From the NCBI GenBank assembly GCA_024280895.1, contig JAJRPI010000039.1, positions 1-51,139 of the forward strand: a DNA stretch of 51,139 nucleotides, written 5' to 3'. Below, piece after piece: positions 1 to 33,660 of the stretch. Origin of the DNA: Alphaproteobacteria bacterium. GTDB taxonomy: Bacteria; Pseudomonadota; Alphaproteobacteria; Rhizobiales; JAKIUO01. Under the pieces are notes generated by a model. It was not told the DNA's origin. It saw only the letters and a program-made list of their open reading frames with translations, and did not search any database. Made by a program: the position numbers and the translations under genes. Positions within the stretch are counted from its first letter, which is position 1. Each line of letters starts with the position of its first letter.

Positions 1-156
1 GGGCCAATTACCGATCTTGCCGATTTTCGCGCAAGTCATCTTCGGCTTGTTGCGACACTTGGGCCAATTACCGATCTTGCCGATTTTCGCGCAAGTCATC
101 TTTGGCTTGTTGCGACACTTGGGCCAGTTGCCAATCTTGCCAATCTTCGCGCAAGT
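1..156. repeat. 60-bp tandem repeat (2.6 copies, continues beyond edge)
   Basis: Positions 1-60 and 61-120 differ at a single base (c/t at 43/103). A third, more diverged partial copy covers 121-156. The unit is 20 codons of the minus-strand giant gene and encodes TCAKIGKIGNWPKCRNKPKM-type repeats with two cysteines and one tryptophan per unit. The array is cut by the window start, so the total copy number is unknown. Confidence 0.95.
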
Positions 157-3100
157 CTGAATGACAATTGGGCGTCTGCCACACCAGTAACCTTTCTTGC
201 GAGAGAGAGTCCAGCCGAGGTTTTTGTAGCGGCGATATGCTTTACTCGACGTCACCTTGGTCTGACCCTTGGCACAGGTTTGTGGCACTGTTTTCTTGAC
301 GCAACGGCGATATTGATCGCGCTGATAGCCACGTTTGCATAGACAGCCATCACTGGTCATGACTTCGTTTCTGTTGCACTGTTTCGCGCCGGGTTTGGCA
401 CAAATGACAGGTACGACACCATTACCGCCAAGGTTCTTTATCTTCCAGCCCTTGTTTTTATAGGTCCGGATTTGACCAGGATTGATCTGTTTCCACGGTT
501 TATCGCATGTGCGGGGTGCCGTGAAGTTCTTCAAACAGATACCCGATGAGCCACGGCGATAGTTTCGCTTGCAGACACACTGGTTCTTCTTGCTCCGGTA
601 CTCGTTGGGGCCGGGGACGCAGCTTTGTGGTTTACCTGGTTTGACACACCAGATTTTCCGCTTGCCCGTGCCTCGACTTTTGGCGTTATAGCCTTTGCCT
701 TTGTAGCCGGCCACTTCACCAAGCCAGACTTTCGTCCAGCCGCTCCAGCAAACCAAGGGGGATTTTGGTTTTTTGGCACAAACACTGCGACCATTGTCGA
801 AATGGCGCTTGAGCGTAGGCCAGCCAGTTGGCACCTTGCCGACAGGGAATTTTGTCCAGCCTGAAGGACACTGGTTGACGGTCGGGCGTTTGCGGGCGCA
901 CCAGATTTGATTGCGGCCTTTCGTACCGCGTGGTTTGACATCAAAGCCGTTTTTCTCATAAGAGCGGATTTGGTTGTCATTTATCTGTTTCCAGCCACTC
1001 CAGCATTGTGGAGGAGGCGTGGTTGTACGCTTGGCGCACCAGATGGTTTGACCGTTCTTGCTACGTGGTTTGACGGTATAGTGCTTTGCACGATAGTCGC
1101 TGGCCTGGCTGGACTTGATCTGTGTCCAGCGATCGCTCCAACATTGAAGCGATGGTTTTTGGGCCGCTTTGGCACACCAGAACTTATAACGACTATTGGG
1201 ACGTCCGATCTGCTTCTTGGTCCAGCCGCGCGGGATTGCCGAGCGGTTTTTATAGAGGGACCAGCCACGATCGCAGCGTGGTTCACCGCAAACAATATCG
1301 CGACCATTGGAGCGAACACTCTTCAAGGCATAGCCCAAAGGTTTGCCTTTAAAGCTGCGGAACCGGTCCAAACCACGAGGGCAGACAGGGTCTTTGCCGA
1401 CAAATGGTGGGATCGGGTCCGTGATGCGGATTGGCGGTATATCACCAAAGCAGCGACGACCATTCCACTTGCTTCCAGAGGGGCACTGACAATTGCCAGC
1501 CTTGTTGAGCACCATGCCGCTGGTGCACTGTTCGGTAGAAGTTTCCTTCGTATTGAAAGGATGACAGGCATAGCGAGGAGATCCCTCATTGGCCTGAGCC
1601 GATCCAGCCCCTTCCAGAGTATCACCAATATCAGCGCTTAGAATACCGGCTTCGCCGATCAATACGCAGTTGCGCATACCGGTTGATGAAGACGGTGGCA
1701 CCGAGCTGTTGGTTGGCGCGTTATTGTCATTTTCGGGTAGCGTGACAATCACCTTGTGCGTGCGGCTTTGACCAGCCCCAAGCGTCACATCGGCAACGCA
1801 ACCAAATGGCAGAGCGGTTGGTTCAACAGCACATCCAAATGGAGGAGTGACCGTAATACCGGCACCAGGAACAAGGCCGCCATTCGCGTCGGTAATGCCG
1901 TCAATAATGGCCAGCTTACCGTTGAAGTCGGTATTGCCTCCGTTTTTAAGAGTGATCTCGAAGTGACAGGGGGTTTCCGAGTCACAGACGCTATCACCGG
2001 TTTTTTCAACGGAGATATCGTTGGGATCTTCTCCAACCGGGGGATCTACTGGATCTGCTCCTCCTTCGACACAAACGCTGTCGAATGTATGAACATCACC
2101 ACCGCCTGATACCAGACCTTCAACACAGTTTTTATAGCGTTGTTGGGTCAGTTCAATACCGCTAAAACTCATCACGAAAGAGCGCGATACGCCGGGTCCA
2201 ACCTTGCTGCCATCGATGGAGCAATTGAGGTTGGCGGCAGGCACGGCTGAGCAGGTCCAGTCGGCTGCCGGGGCGTCAGGTGTGACGCTATTGATGGTGA
2301 TCGCACCGCCACCAACAAGGGTGGTGACGTCATTGATCGAAATCGGACCAACAGCTGAGCCAGCTCCACTATTGGTGACCGTGATCTTGCACACAACCAC
2401 ATTTCCATCCACAGCCGTGAAGGTTTCAGCAGTGCCGCAGTTTTTGGCAAGCTTCAGATCGGGATGCTTGGGATCTGGATCCGGCAGCTTGGCAATGGCG
2501 CAGCTTTTTGGTGATCCGGTCTGCTCTTCCAGCAGGGCGCAGTTTTTCACCTCACGACTTGGATAGTCGGTTTTCGATACCATTGCTTCCACCGTCAAAA
2601 TAGTTTCCGCCATTGGTGGCAGAATGATATTGCGCGTACACTCGAATTTATCCGGTGCGCCATCAGGGCCGCATACCCACGGGGGAACAGGGCTGAAGTT
2701 TGAGCTGATCGGCGCTCCATTTGGATAACGATCACGGACCGTCAGAGGACCGGCATAGACCCCGCTGCCAACATTGCGGATACGGATCTGATAAGTGCAC
2801 AGGGCCTGATCAACGCCAACGCCTAGCAGGCACCACTCGTCGATCACTTTTTTCTCCAGGCGAAGCTCAGGCTTGCCGTCTTCTTCTGGTGGATCACATT
2901 TTTCGACCTCTGGATCGCAGGGGCAGTCTTCCCATTCTGGATCACAAGGAGGAGGAGGTGGTGGGGGAGGTGGTGGCGGAGGACAGTCCTTATCACCTTC
3001 TTCGCACTCTTTGGGACAATCGATATCTATAGGGATGACAATGATGATTTTTTGCACACAGCACAGACCAAGCCCGTTTTTGGAGCCAGCGACATGCTTG

Positions 3101-4086
3101 ACATCGCCATCTGTAAGTCCATTGGCAACGAGGTTGATGCTCATGCCAGGCACAGCGCCATGAATGCTCCATGCGAGCACACCGCCGCCAGCAGGCACAA
3201 TCTGTGAGGGCGGGAAGATGGAAACGCCGGGTGTGGTGGAGACCAGCTCGATGACCTTGCCGCCATATTCGGCACCAATAGTCATTTTATAGATAAAGTC
3301 ACCGGGGTGCTCGAGATCACATTCGACTTCGCCGTTAATGACCTTGAAGCACACTTCGCCCACGGGATCGCCGCCGCCGGTATCTTCAGGACAATCACTG
3401 ACATCGATCAAAATTTGCGTTGGTTCGCCATTGACAGGATCGCCATCTTCGGGAAGTGCGATATCATGAGAAAAAACGGTCTCAGGACCAGACGCTTTGG
3501 CCTGATTGGAGATCATTTTGGGAGCGAGGAATTTGCTTTTGTCGATTTTGGCGAGAATGGTTATCGTGAACTGCCGGTCGTCAGCATTTCCCAGACCGTC
3601 CAGATTGGTTTTCGACAAATGCAGCTTTTTCCAGACCAACGTGTCGTTGGCATGGCTTGTTGTCTGGATTTCGGGGGCCAGCATGAGGCCGCCACCAGGA
3701 CCGGTTACGTCTCCAGTGATCGTCGCGGATTGAATGGACAGACCCTCGGGCAAGACATCTCTTATTCTGATGGCCTTTGCAACAATACTGTCTTGAATGG
3801 TCTCATTATACCACCCAACTAACGGCTTGGTGTAAGTTAGTTTGAACTCGACATAATCGCAGTCGATTTGATGACCGGATTTATAAAATGTCGCTTTTTC
3901 AACTTCTATTAAGGCATTGGCCGGTGCCATAAAGCCCGGTGCAAACTGCATGAACAGTGTTGCGAGCAGCAACAAGGCTGTTTGTTTGGTAGAGATCAGG
4001 GGTTTCATAATCGTCTCCGAAAATGGGAATTTGAGGTGCGCCAAGGACCGTTTGATCGCGGCGGAGAAATTTTGTTTATGTGTCAT
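1..4086 (-). CDS. Giant secreted DUF11-type protein with Cys/Trp-rich repeats (3' end outside window)
   Basis: Open in one frame for 1,362 codons from 4086 to the window edge, so the C-terminus is missing. I chose ATG 4086 because AAGGAGG lies 6 bases upstream, overlapping the stop of the preceding gene; the ATG at 4008 is in frame but has a weaker site. An N-terminal hydrophobic segment ending in APANA (residues ~37-58) looks like a long signal peptide. Then come a domain with TPGVSIFPP...LCCVQK (~270-346) that is homologous to the end of the upstream gene product, a ten-proline linker (~368-380), three DUF11-like repeats (starting ~403, 541, 688), an EGF-like Cys cluster (~850-877), and about eight 35-45-residue modules of the form CxxGW...GxxVKxR...WCAK (from ~900). 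Near-identical 20-residue repeats follow from ~1311. Probably a surface or extracellular structural/adhesive protein; the exact function is unknown. Confidence 0.85.
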   Translation of the reverse strand, partial: MTHKQNFSAAIKRSLAHLKFPFSETIMKPLISTKQTALLLLATLFMQFAPGFMAPANALIEVEKATFYKSGHQIDCDYVEFKLTYTKPLVGWYNETIQDSIVAKAIRIRDVLPEGLSIQSATITGDVTGPGGGLMLAPEIQTTSHANDTLVWKKLHLSKTNLDGLGNADDRQFTITILAKIDKSKFLAPKMISNQAKASGPETVFSHDIALPEDGDPVNGEPTQILIDVSDCPEDTGGGDPVGEVCFKVINGEVECDLEHPGDFIYKMTIGAEYGGKVIELVSTTPGVSIFPPSQIVPAGGGVLAWSIHGAVPGMSINLVANGLTDGDVKHVAGSKNGLGLCCVQKIIIVIPIDIDCPKECEEGDKDCPPPPPPPPPPPPCDPEWEDCPCDPEVEKCDPPEEDGKPELRLEKKVIDEWCLLGVGVDQALCTYQIRIRNVGSGVYAGPLTVRDRYPNGAPISSNFSPVPPWVCGPDGAPDKFECTRNIILPPMAETILTVEAMVSKTDYPSREVKNCALLEEQTGSPKSCAIAKLPDPDPKHPDLKLAKNCGTAETFTAVDGNVVVCKITVTNSGAGSAVGPISINDVTTLVGGGAITINSVTPDAPAADWTCSAVPAANLNCSIDGSKVGPGVSRSFVMSFSGIELTQQRYKNCVEGLVSGGGDVHTFDSVCVEGGADPVDPPVGEDPNDISVEKTGDSVCDSETPCHFEITLKNGGNTDFNGKLAIIDGITDANGGLVPGAGITVTPPFGCAVEPTALPFGCVADVTLGAGQSRTHKVIVTLPENDNNAPTNSSVPPSSSTGMRNCVLIGEAGILSADIGDTLEGAGSAQANEGSPRYACHPFNTKETSTEQCTSGMVLNKAGNCQCPSGSKWNGRRCFGDIPPIRITDPIPPFVGKDPVCPRGLDRFRSFKGKPLGYALKSVRSNGRDIVCGEPRCDRGWSLYKNRSAIPRGWTKKQIGRPNSRYKFWCAKAAQKPSLQCWSDRWTQIKSSQASDYRAKHYTVKPRSKNGQTIWCAKRTTTPPPQCWSGWKQINDNQIRSYEKNGFDVKPRGTKGRNQIWCARKRPTVNQCPSGWTKFPVGKVPTGWPTLKRHFDNGRSVCAKKPKSPLVCWSGWTKVWLGEVAGYKGKGYNAKSRGTGKRKIWCVKPGKPQSCVPGPNEYRSKKNQCVCKRNYRRGSSGICLKNFTAPRTCDKPWKQINPGQIRTYKNKGWKIKNLGGNGVVPVICAKPGAKQCNRNEVMTSDGCLCKRGYQRDQYRRCVKKTVPQTCAKGQTKVTSSKAYRRYKNLGWTLSRKKGYWCGRRPIVIQTCAKIGKIGNWPKCRNKPKMTCAKIGKIGNWPKCRNKPKMTCAKIGKIGNWP

Positions 4087-4096
4087 TATTTCCTCC

Positions 4097-6133
4097 TTAT
4101 GGGGCGCAAATGTCAGTGGGGGTGCGGAGCGGCAATTGTAGCTTGCAGCACGGGAAAGTCTTGCCTGGAATGGCGGCATCGGCCTCCTTGTAGAGGCACA
4201 GATTGAGGTTGACCTTTTTACCAGATCCAGCCCCAACGAAATCAAGCCAGAACGGATCCAGCACCGAGGCGCGTTTTTGCATGGGTGGGAAGACAGAGAC
4301 GCCCGGCGTTGCCGATTGGGTTTTCAGGCTATCAAAACCAAGTCCGGTATTATCTTTTAACCAGATCGAGGCTTCAACTCCGCCTGGATTACAACGATAT
4401 TCGATCCATTCAACATTGGCGCATTTTGGGGTCGGATCGGGGAGGGGTACTGGATAGGGTATAATATCGCCCCAGCCGTAAGAACGACCACCACGACAAG
4501 GGTTCCAGATCTCGATATCACCGACATGACCGCGGACCTCGGGGTCCTCGAAGGTGCCGTCATAATCGACAAAATAGCTGCCGAAAGGCGGGACGTTTTG
4601 AGGCCGCACCAGATGTTTACTGGTCAGCTGGAAACCATGCACATTGAACGGTCCACCTACGGCTAGTTGATCGGCAAGGGCCGCATTATCGCGCAGATTA
4701 TCACCAGTTTTGCCAAGCGTGCCATCGCAGCTGCGCGGGTTGATATTGCCATTTTTATCATAGCCATAACCAAGGTCGATACCGCCAAGTGTCATGCGGT
4801 GCCCTTCTGGGAAACCAACGGCATACTCGGCCGGGGTTTCTATCCAAACGGAGGGAGTTGCCGGATCATCAGGGCTTTCGCGGTGATAGCGAAGTACCTG
4901 CGAGGTTGCGGGTGCCGCGAAACTTGAATAATCATAGGCATTTTTGACATGGCCTCGCTGGGCCAGATACATAAAGCCTTTGCGGTCGAACACAATATCA
5001 GTGACGGGATGATCGCTATCTGATTTGACATCAAGTTCCCAGCGCGCGTCATCCTTGAAGCTGCCGTCATGATTGATGCCGATAGACCAGACTTGCAGGC
5101 CCTCAAACACCGCATAAAACAAGCGATTGCCTTTGACCGCAAGACCGTGCATACGGCGAGCAGTAGAGGTGAATCCCCAGGTTTCTGGATCTTGTGCGTT
5201 AAAGGTTGGGCTGGTGATATCCATGCGGTCGGCGGGGTCATGGGGCACCGCGTCAAAACCATTTTTGGGGCGGCCATTGATGCCATGATCAAAATTGCCC
5301 AGATCGCTGCCTTGCATGTCAAAGCGATGTATCTTGCCAGTATCAAGGTCAGAGACGAACAATTGCTGATGGGTCTGGTCAAAGGCGATATTGCCAAGTC
5401 CAGCGCCTGCATTATCAACGCCATCCAGTTGCACATTGGCAAAAAGCGTCACTTCACCAGTGACGCCGTTTATTTTGTAGATGCTGCCGGGACCGCCACC
5501 AAGATCAAGACCGTGCTGGCCGTCCATGAAGGTGGCGCCAGGGGCACCGGTTTTGATGCGCTCAGGGCGACCATCACCATCGCTATCTGGGACAACGACC
5601 TGCAAGCCATGCAGGGTTGCGGCGCTGACATAAAGATTTGGTACGGTGCGCTTGCCGTCAGTGCGTCCCTCAATGAGGGTACCATTGTCGTACGCGAGGC
5701 CAAATACTTGTCCGATTTTACGCGCTTCCACTTCGAACGGTGGAGGGGTGTTGACGAGCTGGCCTTTGGGCGCTTCGCCAGCAACCCGCACATTGAAAAT
5801 TCGTAAGGTTTTACCGCCTAAATCAATGAATGTTTCGTCCAGCGGATTGATGCCGGGGGGAAGACCTTCTTGCGGAAAAGTAGTGCCGGAAAAACCGGTA
5901 ACCGCGATATTGCCTGGCTTCATCAAGGGGCCATCCGCTGAAGGGCCATCGCTGCTAAACAGGCCTTTGATACCGTCCAATATACCGCCTTGTGCGGCGG
6001 CAGGGCTTATAAGGGCTACGGAAGAAGACAAGCAAAGGAGGGCACCAAGGCTTACGGAGCGCAACAAATCCACCTTGCGTGATGCAGGTGATCTTAACGA
6101 CCTCGTGTGAACTGTTTCAAGTTGCGAGTTCAT
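4097..6133 (-). CDS. Secreted beta-propeller-like protein sharing a C-terminal domain with the downstream giant protein
   Basis: 678 residues starting at ATG 6133, with AAGGAG 9 bases upstream. The N-terminus (about 48 residues, hydrophobic core SLGALLCLSSSVALI, cleavage near PAAAQ) is a long signal peptide. Residues ~75-560 contain repeated blade-like segments (GLAYDNGTL, NIAFDQTHQQLFVSDL, MHGLAVKGNRLFYAVF, DIVFDRKGFMYLAQ) and a Ca-binding-like DSDGDG stretch, resembling NHL/SMP-30-type propellers. The last ~80 residues (TPGVSVFPP ... FPCCK) match a segment of the next gene product. The stop codon TAAGGAGG doubles as the ribosome binding site of that next gene, so the two are translationally coupled. 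The sequence does not reveal a ligand or enzymatic activity. Confidence 0.85.
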   Translation of the reverse strand: MNSQLETVHTRSLRSPASRKVDLLRSVSLGALLCLSSSVALISPAAAQGGILDGIKGLFSSDGPSADGPLMKPGNIAVTGFSGTTFPQEGLPPGINPLDETFIDLGGKTLRIFNVRVAGEAPKGQLVNTPPPFEVEARKIGQVFGLAYDNGTLIEGRTDGKRTVPNLYVSAATLHGLQVVVPDSDGDGRPERIKTGAPGATFMDGQHGLDLGGGPGSIYKINGVTGEVTLFANVQLDGVDNAGAGLGNIAFDQTHQQLFVSDLDTGKIHRFDMQGSDLGNFDHGINGRPKNGFDAVPHDPADRMDITSPTFNAQDPETWGFTSTARRMHGLAVKGNRLFYAVFEGLQVWSIGINHDGSFKDDARWELDVKSDSDHPVTDIVFDRKGFMYLAQRGHVKNAYDYSSFAAPATSQVLRYHRESPDDPATPSVWIETPAEYAVGFPEGHRMTLGGIDLGYGYDKNGNINPRSCDGTLGKTGDNLRDNAALADQLAVGGPFNVHGFQLTSKHLVRPQNVPPFGSYFVDYDGTFEDPEVRGHVGDIEIWNPCRGGRSYGWGDIIPYPVPLPDPTPKCANVEWIEYRCNPGGVEASIWLKDNTGLGFDSLKTQSATPGVSVFPPMQKRASVLDPFWLDFVGAGSGKKVNLNLCLYKEADAAIPGKTFPCCKLQLPLRTPTDICAP

Positions 6134-22733: not shown

Positions 22734-23114
22734 ATGAGCATGCAAACACCGCTAGGGCGGGTGAGGGGACTGGGTCCGGCGCGTTCGGGGACGTCTCATT
22801 TCTGGTGGCAGCGCCTGACGGCTGTGGCCAATATTGTCCTGACCTTGTTCCTGCTTTTTTCCATTGTCTTTCATGTGGGGGATGATTACGCGTCGGTGAC
22901 GGCCTATCTTGGATCGCCGTTTGTGAGCATCGGGCTTATGCTGTTTATTCTGTCTGTGGTTTTTCACATGTATCTTGGTTTCAAGGTGATTGTCGAAGAC
23001 TACATCCAGCATGAGGGATGGAAAATCCTGTTTCTCATGGGCAATACGTTCTTTTGCATCGCGATTGGCTTTGCTTGCCTGTTTGCGGTATTGAAATTAA
23101 GTTTCGGGAATTAG
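22734..23114 (+). CDS. sdhD: Succinate dehydrogenase membrane anchor subunit
   Basis: 126 residues with three membrane helices (~27-48, 60-80, 95-120). The N-terminal TPLGRVRGLGPARSGTSHFWWQRLTAVAN is typical of alphaproteobacterial SdhD, and FHMYLGFKVIVEDYI carries the heme/quinone-region His and Asp-Tyr. It pairs with SdhC to anchor complex II. Translation appears to start from a site supplied by an intergenic repeat element. sdhA, normally next, is 2.2 kb downstream. Confidence 0.95.
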   Translation: MSMQTPLGRVRGLGPARSGTSHFWWQRLTAVANIVLTLFLLFSIVFHVGDDYASVTAYLGSPFVSIGLMLFILSVVFHMYLGFKVIVEDYIQHEGWKILFLMGNTFFCIAIGFACLFAVLKLSFGN

Positions 23115-23219
23115 AGCACAATCTGAAAAGTGGGCACCGGTTTTCGGATAAATTGTGCGGTAGGAATTAGAGCACAATCTGAAAAGTGGGCACCGGTTTT
23201 CAGATAAATTGTGCGGTAG
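23108..23219 (+). repeat. 56-bp tandem duplication of a rhizobial-type palindrome
   Basis: Copies 23108-23163 and 23164-23219 differ at one base (TTTTCGG versus TTTTCAG). Each holds GCACAAT...GAAAAGTGGGCACCGGTTTTC...ATTGTGC, an imperfect hairpin of a type I associate with Hyphomicrobiales intergenic repeats. The first copy overlaps the sdhD stop region. Confidence 0.9.
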
Positions 23220-23236
23220 GAATAAGAGAGATATAC

Positions 23237-33270: not shown

Positions 33271-33660
33271 CTATTTCATTTTTTTCATTTTATCCATGCC
33301 CATTTTGTCTTTGGCCATGCCGTCTTTTTTCATGGTGTCTTTTTTCATGGCGTCATGCTTCATGCCGTCTTTTTTCATGCCATCCTTCATCATGGTGTCT
33401 TTTTTCATAGCGTCATGCTTCATGCCATCTTTTTTCATGCCATCCTTCATCATGGTGTCTTTTTTCATGGCGTCATGCTTCATGCCATCTTTTTTCATGC
33501 CATCTTTCATCATGGGCTTTTTCATATCGCCCTTCTTCATGTCCTTTTTCATATCCATTTTCTTCATGTCGCCCATTTTTTTGGCGTGACCGGCAGCAAA
33601 GGCCGCGCCGGACATGAGCATGGTGCTTGACAAGATCACGGCAGCTATAAGTTTAGACAT
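33271..33660 (-). CDS. MXKDX pentapeptide-repeat secreted protein
   Basis: 129 residues. A signal peptide (MSKLIAAVILSSTMLMSGAAFA) is followed almost entirely by pentapeptides of the MKKDG/MKHDA/MKKDT type, as in the family 'pentapeptide MXKDX repeat protein'. Met, Lys, Asp and a few His dominate; the protein should be exported and unstructured, and may bind metal ions (inference from Met/His/Asp content). The DNA shows a 60-bp, 20-codon superrepeat. It precedes the response regulator on the same strand. Confidence 0.88.
   Translation of the reverse strand: MSKLIAAVILSSTMLMSGAAFAAGHAKKMGDMKKMDMKKDMKKGDMKKPMMKDGMKKDGMKHDAMKKDTMMKDGMKKDGMKHDAMKKDTMMKDGMKKDGMKHDAMKKDTMKKDGMAKDKMGMDKMKKMK
33350..33515. 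repeat. 60-bp tandem repeat in MXKDX gene
   Basis: About 2.8 copies with near-perfect 60-base periodicity (CATGCCATCTTTTTTCATGC begins units near 33361, 33421 and 33481). Coding repeat, likely variable in copy number by slippage. Confidence 0.9.

Follow-up and report, generated by a model that had tools for sequence, protein, structure and literature searches.

A conserved alphaproteobacterial gene pair predicted to encode a two-polypeptide fibrillar adhesin with a paired domain

The operon described here probably codes for a fibrillar adhesin made as two polypeptides, a propeller head and a DUF7929/DUF11 stalk, which would be joined by docking between a C-terminal domain of the head protein (T1) and a related domain of the stalk protein (T2). 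T1 and T2 are homologous, they co-occur in the same genomes and are encoded next to each other. Homologues of the head and the stalk also exist as single fused chains, and one of these, L076, is devoid of both domains while being nested among the split forms. Based on these sequence data, the pair appears to be a real, conserved two-gene surface system and a variant of the fibrillar adhesins with a paired domain, for which docking is likely.

Organization of the gene pair

The window, i.e. the whole stretch of DNA analysed, is an entire contig (C47) of 51139 bases from a draft genome of 96 contigs. Both genes are ORFs on the minus strand. Gene 1 (4097..6133) codes for a propeller-like protein of 678 aa composed, in order, of an N-terminal signal-like segment, the propeller and T1, and it has orthologues 74-93% identical in four other genomes of the family. 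Gene 2 (1..4086), the stalk gene, starts with an ATG at 4086-4084 and is open at the contig end, with 1362 aa visible. The sequence-only reading had placed the stop codon of the first gene within the ribosome binding site of the second, and this is what we find, as the TAA (4099-4097) overlaps the Shine-Dalgarno-like TAAGGAGG of gene 2 (4092..4099, minus strand). Co-translation is likely.

The junction of the four relatives (loci L014, L015, L016 and L017) reads CATAGGAGG, and the stop codon of gene 1 is TAG. There, gene 2 starts in the frame of this TAG; in the window an extra A sets the two out of frame. The idea of programmed read-through at the end of gene 1 was dropped, given the out-of-frame arrangement in the window and the occurrence of the same-frame (+4) spacing in only 6 of 24 pairs, a list that leaves out L016. 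Two of these relatives show irregularities in gene 1 that may be assembly faults or decay, namely an in-frame TAG between the propeller and T1 (L016:11711-11713) and a gene start divided between two frames, close to undetermined bases (L017:9795-10082).

The visible part of gene 2 terminates in a 20-aa tandem repeat (TCAKIGKIGNWPKCRNKPKM) at the contig edge. Another contig of the same genome, C13, opens with this repeat, and its frame C13:1-303, which carries a C-terminal end, is probably the continuation and end of gene 2. The break between the two contigs falls inside the repeat, so that the copy number of the repeat and the length of gene 2 seen here are minimum values. Elsewhere in the window are a tandem repeat with 15-, 30- and 60-base periods (33316-33570), presumably coding for a Met/Lys/Asp-rich repeat, and a 56-base direct repeat of approximately two copies (23107-23228).

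A domain shared by both proteins

T1 covers residues 571-678 of the gene 1 product (4100..4423, minus strand; ~110 aa) and T2 residues 245-357 of the gene 2 product (3016..3354, minus strand); both are supported by hhalign comparison with each other and by profile searches. T1 contains TPGVSVFPP...W...FPCCK and T2 TPGVSIFPP...LCCVQK; the motifs keep their order and are similarly spaced, and the two domains can be aligned over about 105 positions, i.e. nearly their full length. The proposal that both proteins share a domain was borne out: the window pair scores 62, a value reached by 0 of 2000 shuffles (mean 26.5, maximum 61). The hhalign comparison gives E 1.7e-9 for five T1 against five T2 sequences of the genus and E 1e-12, with a probability of 97.8, for wider profiles of 23 T1 and 21 T2 sequences. 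Its description as a C-terminal-type domain holds for gene 1 but not for gene 2, where it lies in the N-terminal third.

We considered whether T1 and T2 are diverged DUF11 domains. As controls, DUF11-type stalk domains were picked by motif pattern from fused or partner proteins; the first such domains of 24 partner and of 22 fused proteins match each other with E 3.3e-31. Against these stalk domains, T1 and T2 gave E values of 0.03-0.11 and probabilities of at most 1.6, compared with 1e-12 between themselves, and a diverged DUF11 origin was rejected. Given their strong mutual match and poor match to the stalk domains, T1 and T2 form one distinct family.

No model in Pfam or NCBIfam matches T1 or T2 in the window proteins. 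Sequence searches against solved structures yielded nothing for T1 and only matches with E above 1 for T2. Structure comparison of T1 points to a generic Ig-like fold with no specific match (Z at most 7.0), which is not proof of a new fold. An AlphaFold model of linked T1-DUF7929-T2 (mean pLDDT 55) shows, at moderate confidence, an identical strand order in T1 and T2. This model provides the domain topology, and its T1:T2 interface is not trustworthy; with low TM-scores, Foldseek matched the model mostly to adhesin, pilin and ciliary chains. Six Cys residues are conserved in the alignment of T1 and five in that of T2, and an inter-partner disulfide is therefore conceivable from the sequences.

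The stalk protein

Upstream of T2, the gene 2 product harbours a DUF7929 domain (PF25551; 3397..3888, minus strand) with a CnaA-like adhesin fold, detected by Pfam with E 2.1e-35 and 122.5 bits for a cut-off of 27. In the available text of PMC12617251, DUF7929 is a CnaA-like family of surface proteins with a predicted isopeptide triad, and DUF11 is a stalk domain of fibrillar adhesins. By eye and spacing, we assigned K69, D110 and N194 as the candidate triad of gene 2; their spacing is near that of the example given in the same text (Lys 86, Asp 129, Asn 213). By eye in the alignment, the triad is intact in 19 of 23 partner proteins, the exceptions being L056, L068, L071 and L095. The modelled DUF7929 of the orthologue L014 matches pilin and adhesin domains with Z of about 10.

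A Pro-rich acidic linker (2866..3015, minus strand), recognized in the translation, separates T2 from the stalk proper; the similarity of the fused protein L076 to gene 2 starts at aa 378. The following region (1531..2865, minus strand; about aa 408-852) contains DUF11/DUF7507-like stalk domains according to Pfam, with DUF11 at 25.5 bits, just above the cut-off of 24.6, and DUF7507 at 18.5 bits, below the cut-off of 27. Thus, by its CnaA-like stalk domains and its candidate Lys-Asp-Asn triad, the gene 2 product is a predicted isopeptide-type fibrillar adhesin. The remaining 510 aa (1..1530, minus strand) form a basic tail with 33 Cys, 23 Trp and 114 Lys and Arg versus 19 Asp and Glu residues, and end in the 20-aa repeat at the contig edge. 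The Cys/Trp modules noted in the sequence-only reading are indeed found in gene 2, but not in gene 1.

Peptidoglycan-binding domains of the PG_binding_1 family score above the Pfam cut-off in three T2 partners (L068, L073 and L146) and in the fused protein L019, and none was found in the visible part of the window gene 2. Their presence in partners and fused tails hints at a location on the cell wall. One T2 partner, L070:3322-8490, also has a VWA-like domain below the Pfam cut-off, and its T2, at aa 712-791, is not close to the N-terminus.

The propeller

The propeller region of gene 1 (profile A1) extends over about aa 74-565 (4439..5914, minus strand). The window protein has no match in Pfam; among 50 propeller members, SGL and NHL were each detected once, weakly (E 0.016 and 0.078). 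An AlphaFold model of gene 1 from five rows (mean pLDDT 35) formed only T1 and gave no usable propeller. A search of PDB profiles with profile A6 revealed weak similarity (E 4.6e-4) to diisopropylfluorophosphatase, an SMP-30-like propeller.

This similarity bears on the possibility that there is no fibre and that the stalk protein retains at the surface a secreted propeller enzyme, of the lactonase or esterase type; we regard this as rather unlikely. Two observations would fit an enzyme: among solved structures, the propeller is closest to diisopropylfluorophosphatases and an engineered derivative, and polar residues (D, H, R, E, S, Q) occupy 8 of the 22 columns invariant in the 50 propellers. 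The best match, however, spans only about 100 of 478 profile positions. Moreover, an enzymatic role would alter the task of the head and not the joint, and it is compatible with the docking step.

Distribution of the pair

Gene 1 is present in all five genomes of the window's family, and gene 2 follows it in the four relatives, which are MAGs labelled Alphaproteobacteria, 'bacterium' or Hyphomicrobiales. Profile A1 detected propellers in 88 of 297 genomes of the order, representing 51 of 122 genera, and in 5 of 289 genomes of a class-wide draw, own genome included. Fragments aside, the propeller reading frames are mostly of about 680-770 aa or of 800-2300 aa. Searches of plasmids yielded one distant propeller in Ciceribacter, and the stalk was not found.

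We collected T1 and T2 with search profiles of 18 rows each, built from known pairs, so that the search serves as a test for orphans. The two profiles match the same 25 of the 297 genomes of the order, each time with the two domains adjacent on one contig, and neither T1 without T2 nor the reverse was found among the 297. The search for the pair in other genomes, as the sequence-only reading had recommended, thus recovered it well beyond the family. One of the 25 genomes, G115, was not seen to contain either domain before the profile search. In the class sample, T1 was found in 4 of 289 genomes, own genome included, among which the newly found G532 (locus L148) has T2 following T1. DUF7929 occurs in 16 of 199 genomes of the order, all of them T1/T2 genomes, and in none of 14 control genomes. 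T1 is found in one of four genomes of family f38 and in 1 of 20 of family f44. Co-inheritance as an operon could explain part of the T1/T2 co-occurrence.

The environments of the 25 split loci were searched for neighbour clusters present in at least three loci; several of these loci end soon. Leaving aside the gene pair and a shadow frame opposite gene 1, no cluster recurs across more than two families. A telling locus is L146 of G115, on a 3.9-kb contig, where a signal-like segment followed by T1 alone directly precedes a T2 protein. Besides T2, this protein has a signal-like segment, a peptidoglycan-binding domain, Cys modules and what appears by eye to be a DUF11-like part. No propeller was found on that contig. 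A short-tailed propeller without T1 (L147) is present on another contig of G115, where its 5' end is cut, and a 236-aa propeller fragment, L217, is also devoid of T1.

These environments are relevant to a reading in which T1 and T2 each bind a common third component (for instance a receptor of the outer membrane, or a polysaccharide), which would anchor the head and the stalk side by side. A single shared ligand would be natural for two domains homologous over nearly their whole length, and the stalk's own basic Cys/Trp tail leaves T2 free for another purpose. Nevertheless, the split loci offer no neighbour recurring across more than two families as a candidate third component, and a headless T1 beside T2, as in L146, is more simply accounted for by direct pairing. 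We thus consider a common ligand unlikely.

Split and fused propeller proteins

For a comparison of architectures, we used 67 loci, a subset of the places found with profile A1, consisting of 62 stretches chosen by place, the window and L014-L017. T1 follows the propeller after a short tail in 26 of them, 36 have the propeller fused to a longer C-terminal part (4 of these lack their 3' end), and 5 end too soon to be classified. A T2 partner adjoins 25 of the 26 T1 loci; in the remaining one, L069, the contig ends within the partner gene, and T2 is present in the identical twin locus, L070. The propeller regions of L069 and L070 are identical, yet their genomes (G434, G521) belong to two families; as G521 is 10% contaminated, one of the two loci is probably a contamination.

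Neither T1 nor T2 was detected in any of the 36 fused propeller proteins. Pfam found DUF11 in 21 of their tails and PG_binding_1 in 13, and DUF7929 was not among the matches. Together with the three T2 partners, the PG_binding_1 count suggests from domain content that much of the propeller family may be on the cell wall. In a second sample, of 40 stretches of a single family, f2, T1, T2 and DUF7929 were not found in the 34 complete fused ORFs, nor in L176, L179, L190, L206 and L207, each of which is cut at an end.

Short tail, T1 and T2 are concordant in 62 of 62 classifiable propeller loci, with L016 set by hand as T1-positive (its T1 lies beyond the TAG) and L069 as T2-positive, and with a short-tail limit of 190 aa chosen after the tails had been seen (at most 188 or at least 241 aa); L147 is outside these 62 rows. 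In the tree of the propellers (67 rows, 495 columns), 5 changes of the split label are needed, all of them forced by supported branches (5-6 in bootstrap replicates, 5th-95th percentile). A single clade of the 21 main split rows is disfavoured, not rejected (p-AU 0.058). Independent contrasts between architecture and T1/T2 are concordant in 5 of 5 cases, with a sign-test p of 0.0625, the minimum possible with five.

L076, a fused protein of 2327 aa from family f2, neighbours the window's genus in the tree and is nested among split forms (support 100/96 and 100/98). It is collinear with gene 1 followed by gene 2, being 63% identical to gene 1 over aa 71-548, while its similarity to gene 2, in segments of 35-65% identity, sets in at aa 378. 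Its summed bit score in this comparison is 797 versus at most 338 with the other fused proteins compared, overlapping pieces included. At E 0.001, L076 has no match to T1 or to aa 1-377 of gene 2, i.e. the signal peptide, DUF7929 and T2. In such relatives the head and the stalk are in one chain, which would make a joint unneeded, and T1 and T2 are absent. We encountered T1 and T2 in relatives solely when head and stalk are distinct proteins, a pattern suggesting that these domains hold the two parts together.

One could also argue that T1 and T2 have no docking function and are simply Ig-like stalk domains that have diverged, co-occurring because their operon is transmitted as a unit that underwent a few fusions or replacements. 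The generic fold of T1 and the small number of independent contrasts, only five, are in line with this reading. However, T1 and T2 are unlike the DUF11 stalk domains, L076 lacks both though it kept the rest of the stalk, the two persist together without a propeller in L146, and no genome of the 297 has one without the other. Such a scenario seems to us quite improbable.

Proposed assembly and relation to known systems

In the docking model that we favour, the gene 1 product would be the head, a secreted SMP-30-like beta-propeller with the docking domain T1 at its end. The gene 2 product would be the stalk, composed of a signal peptide, the isopeptide-type DUF7929, T2, the Pro-rich linker, a DUF11-type rod and the basic Cys/Trp tail. 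Both have signal-like N-termini by eye and would be exported separately, after which the homologous, Ig-like T1 and T2 would associate as a heterodimer and couple the head to the stalk. The basic tail probably holds the stalk to the cell envelope, and the fibre may serve in adhesion. The notion of a two-partner extracellular assembly, put forward in the sequence-only reading, is supported by the conservation of the pair and by the one-chain propeller/DUF11-stalk homologues.

Part of this architecture has named counterparts. Fibrillar adhesins with stalks of CnaA-like isopeptide domains (DUF11/'CLIPPER', DUF7507, DUF7929), as they appear in the available text of PMC12617251, resemble gene 2 with its DUF7929 and DUF11 domains. 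In that text they are elongated, surface-anchored monomers; in contrast, the head and the stalk are here two polypeptides with a paired extra domain. The earlier view that no named system matches therefore stands for T1/T2, which matched no Pfam or NCBIfam model, but not for gene 2 with its named adhesin-type domains. The fused propeller proteins of the order, such as L018, L019 and L076, are alike in their homologous propeller followed, in many tails, by DUF11 and in their Cys-rich modules (by eye), and unlike in being one chain devoid of T1, T2 and DUF7929. Our literature search, in which propeller and adhesin papers were represented by their titles and the start of their abstracts, retrieved no description of the gene pair or of the paired domain.

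The cohesin-dockerin couple is a dedicated joint linking extracellular proteins that are made separately, and T1:T2 would be likewise; in contrast with it, T1 and T2 are homologous to each other. No Pfam match to cohesin or dockerin was obtained for gene 1 or the visible gene 2 (E up to 1) or for four partners (E up to 0.01). The gene pair also recalls two-partner secretion (TpsA/TpsB), with its two adjacent genes and large exoprotein. Neither the TPS (haemagglutination activity) domain nor a transporter family was matched by gene 1 or the visible gene 2 in Pfam (E up to 1).

More tentatively, T1:T2 might be a new, dedicated head-to-stalk coupling module, in which a duplicated Ig-like domain would have become a specific heterodimer, perhaps locked by a disulfide. 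Alphaproteobacteria would thereby have fibres with separately made, exchangeable parts, the joint having been repeatedly swapped for a covalent fusion; this wider proposal is possible rather than probable. The docking model offers a plausible function for a domain family without a name and puts DUF7929, a predicted isopeptide domain in the available text of PMC12617251, in a defined gene pair. In addition, the loci form a clean natural experiment on the rule by which fused proteins point to interacting partners, and they comprise a fused protein from which the joint is missing. If docking is true, T1:T2 would be a new heterodimer pair for protein display on Gram-negative cells.

Genes for an ECF sigma factor and an anti-sigma-like protein lie divergently beside the propeller genes of L056 and L058-L062 (family f33), L076, L079 and L110. 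This couple, present beside split and fused forms alike, may be a regulator of the fibre. In f33, L076 and L079, these genes are followed by that of a third protein, which by its motif resembles a subtilisin-type protease.
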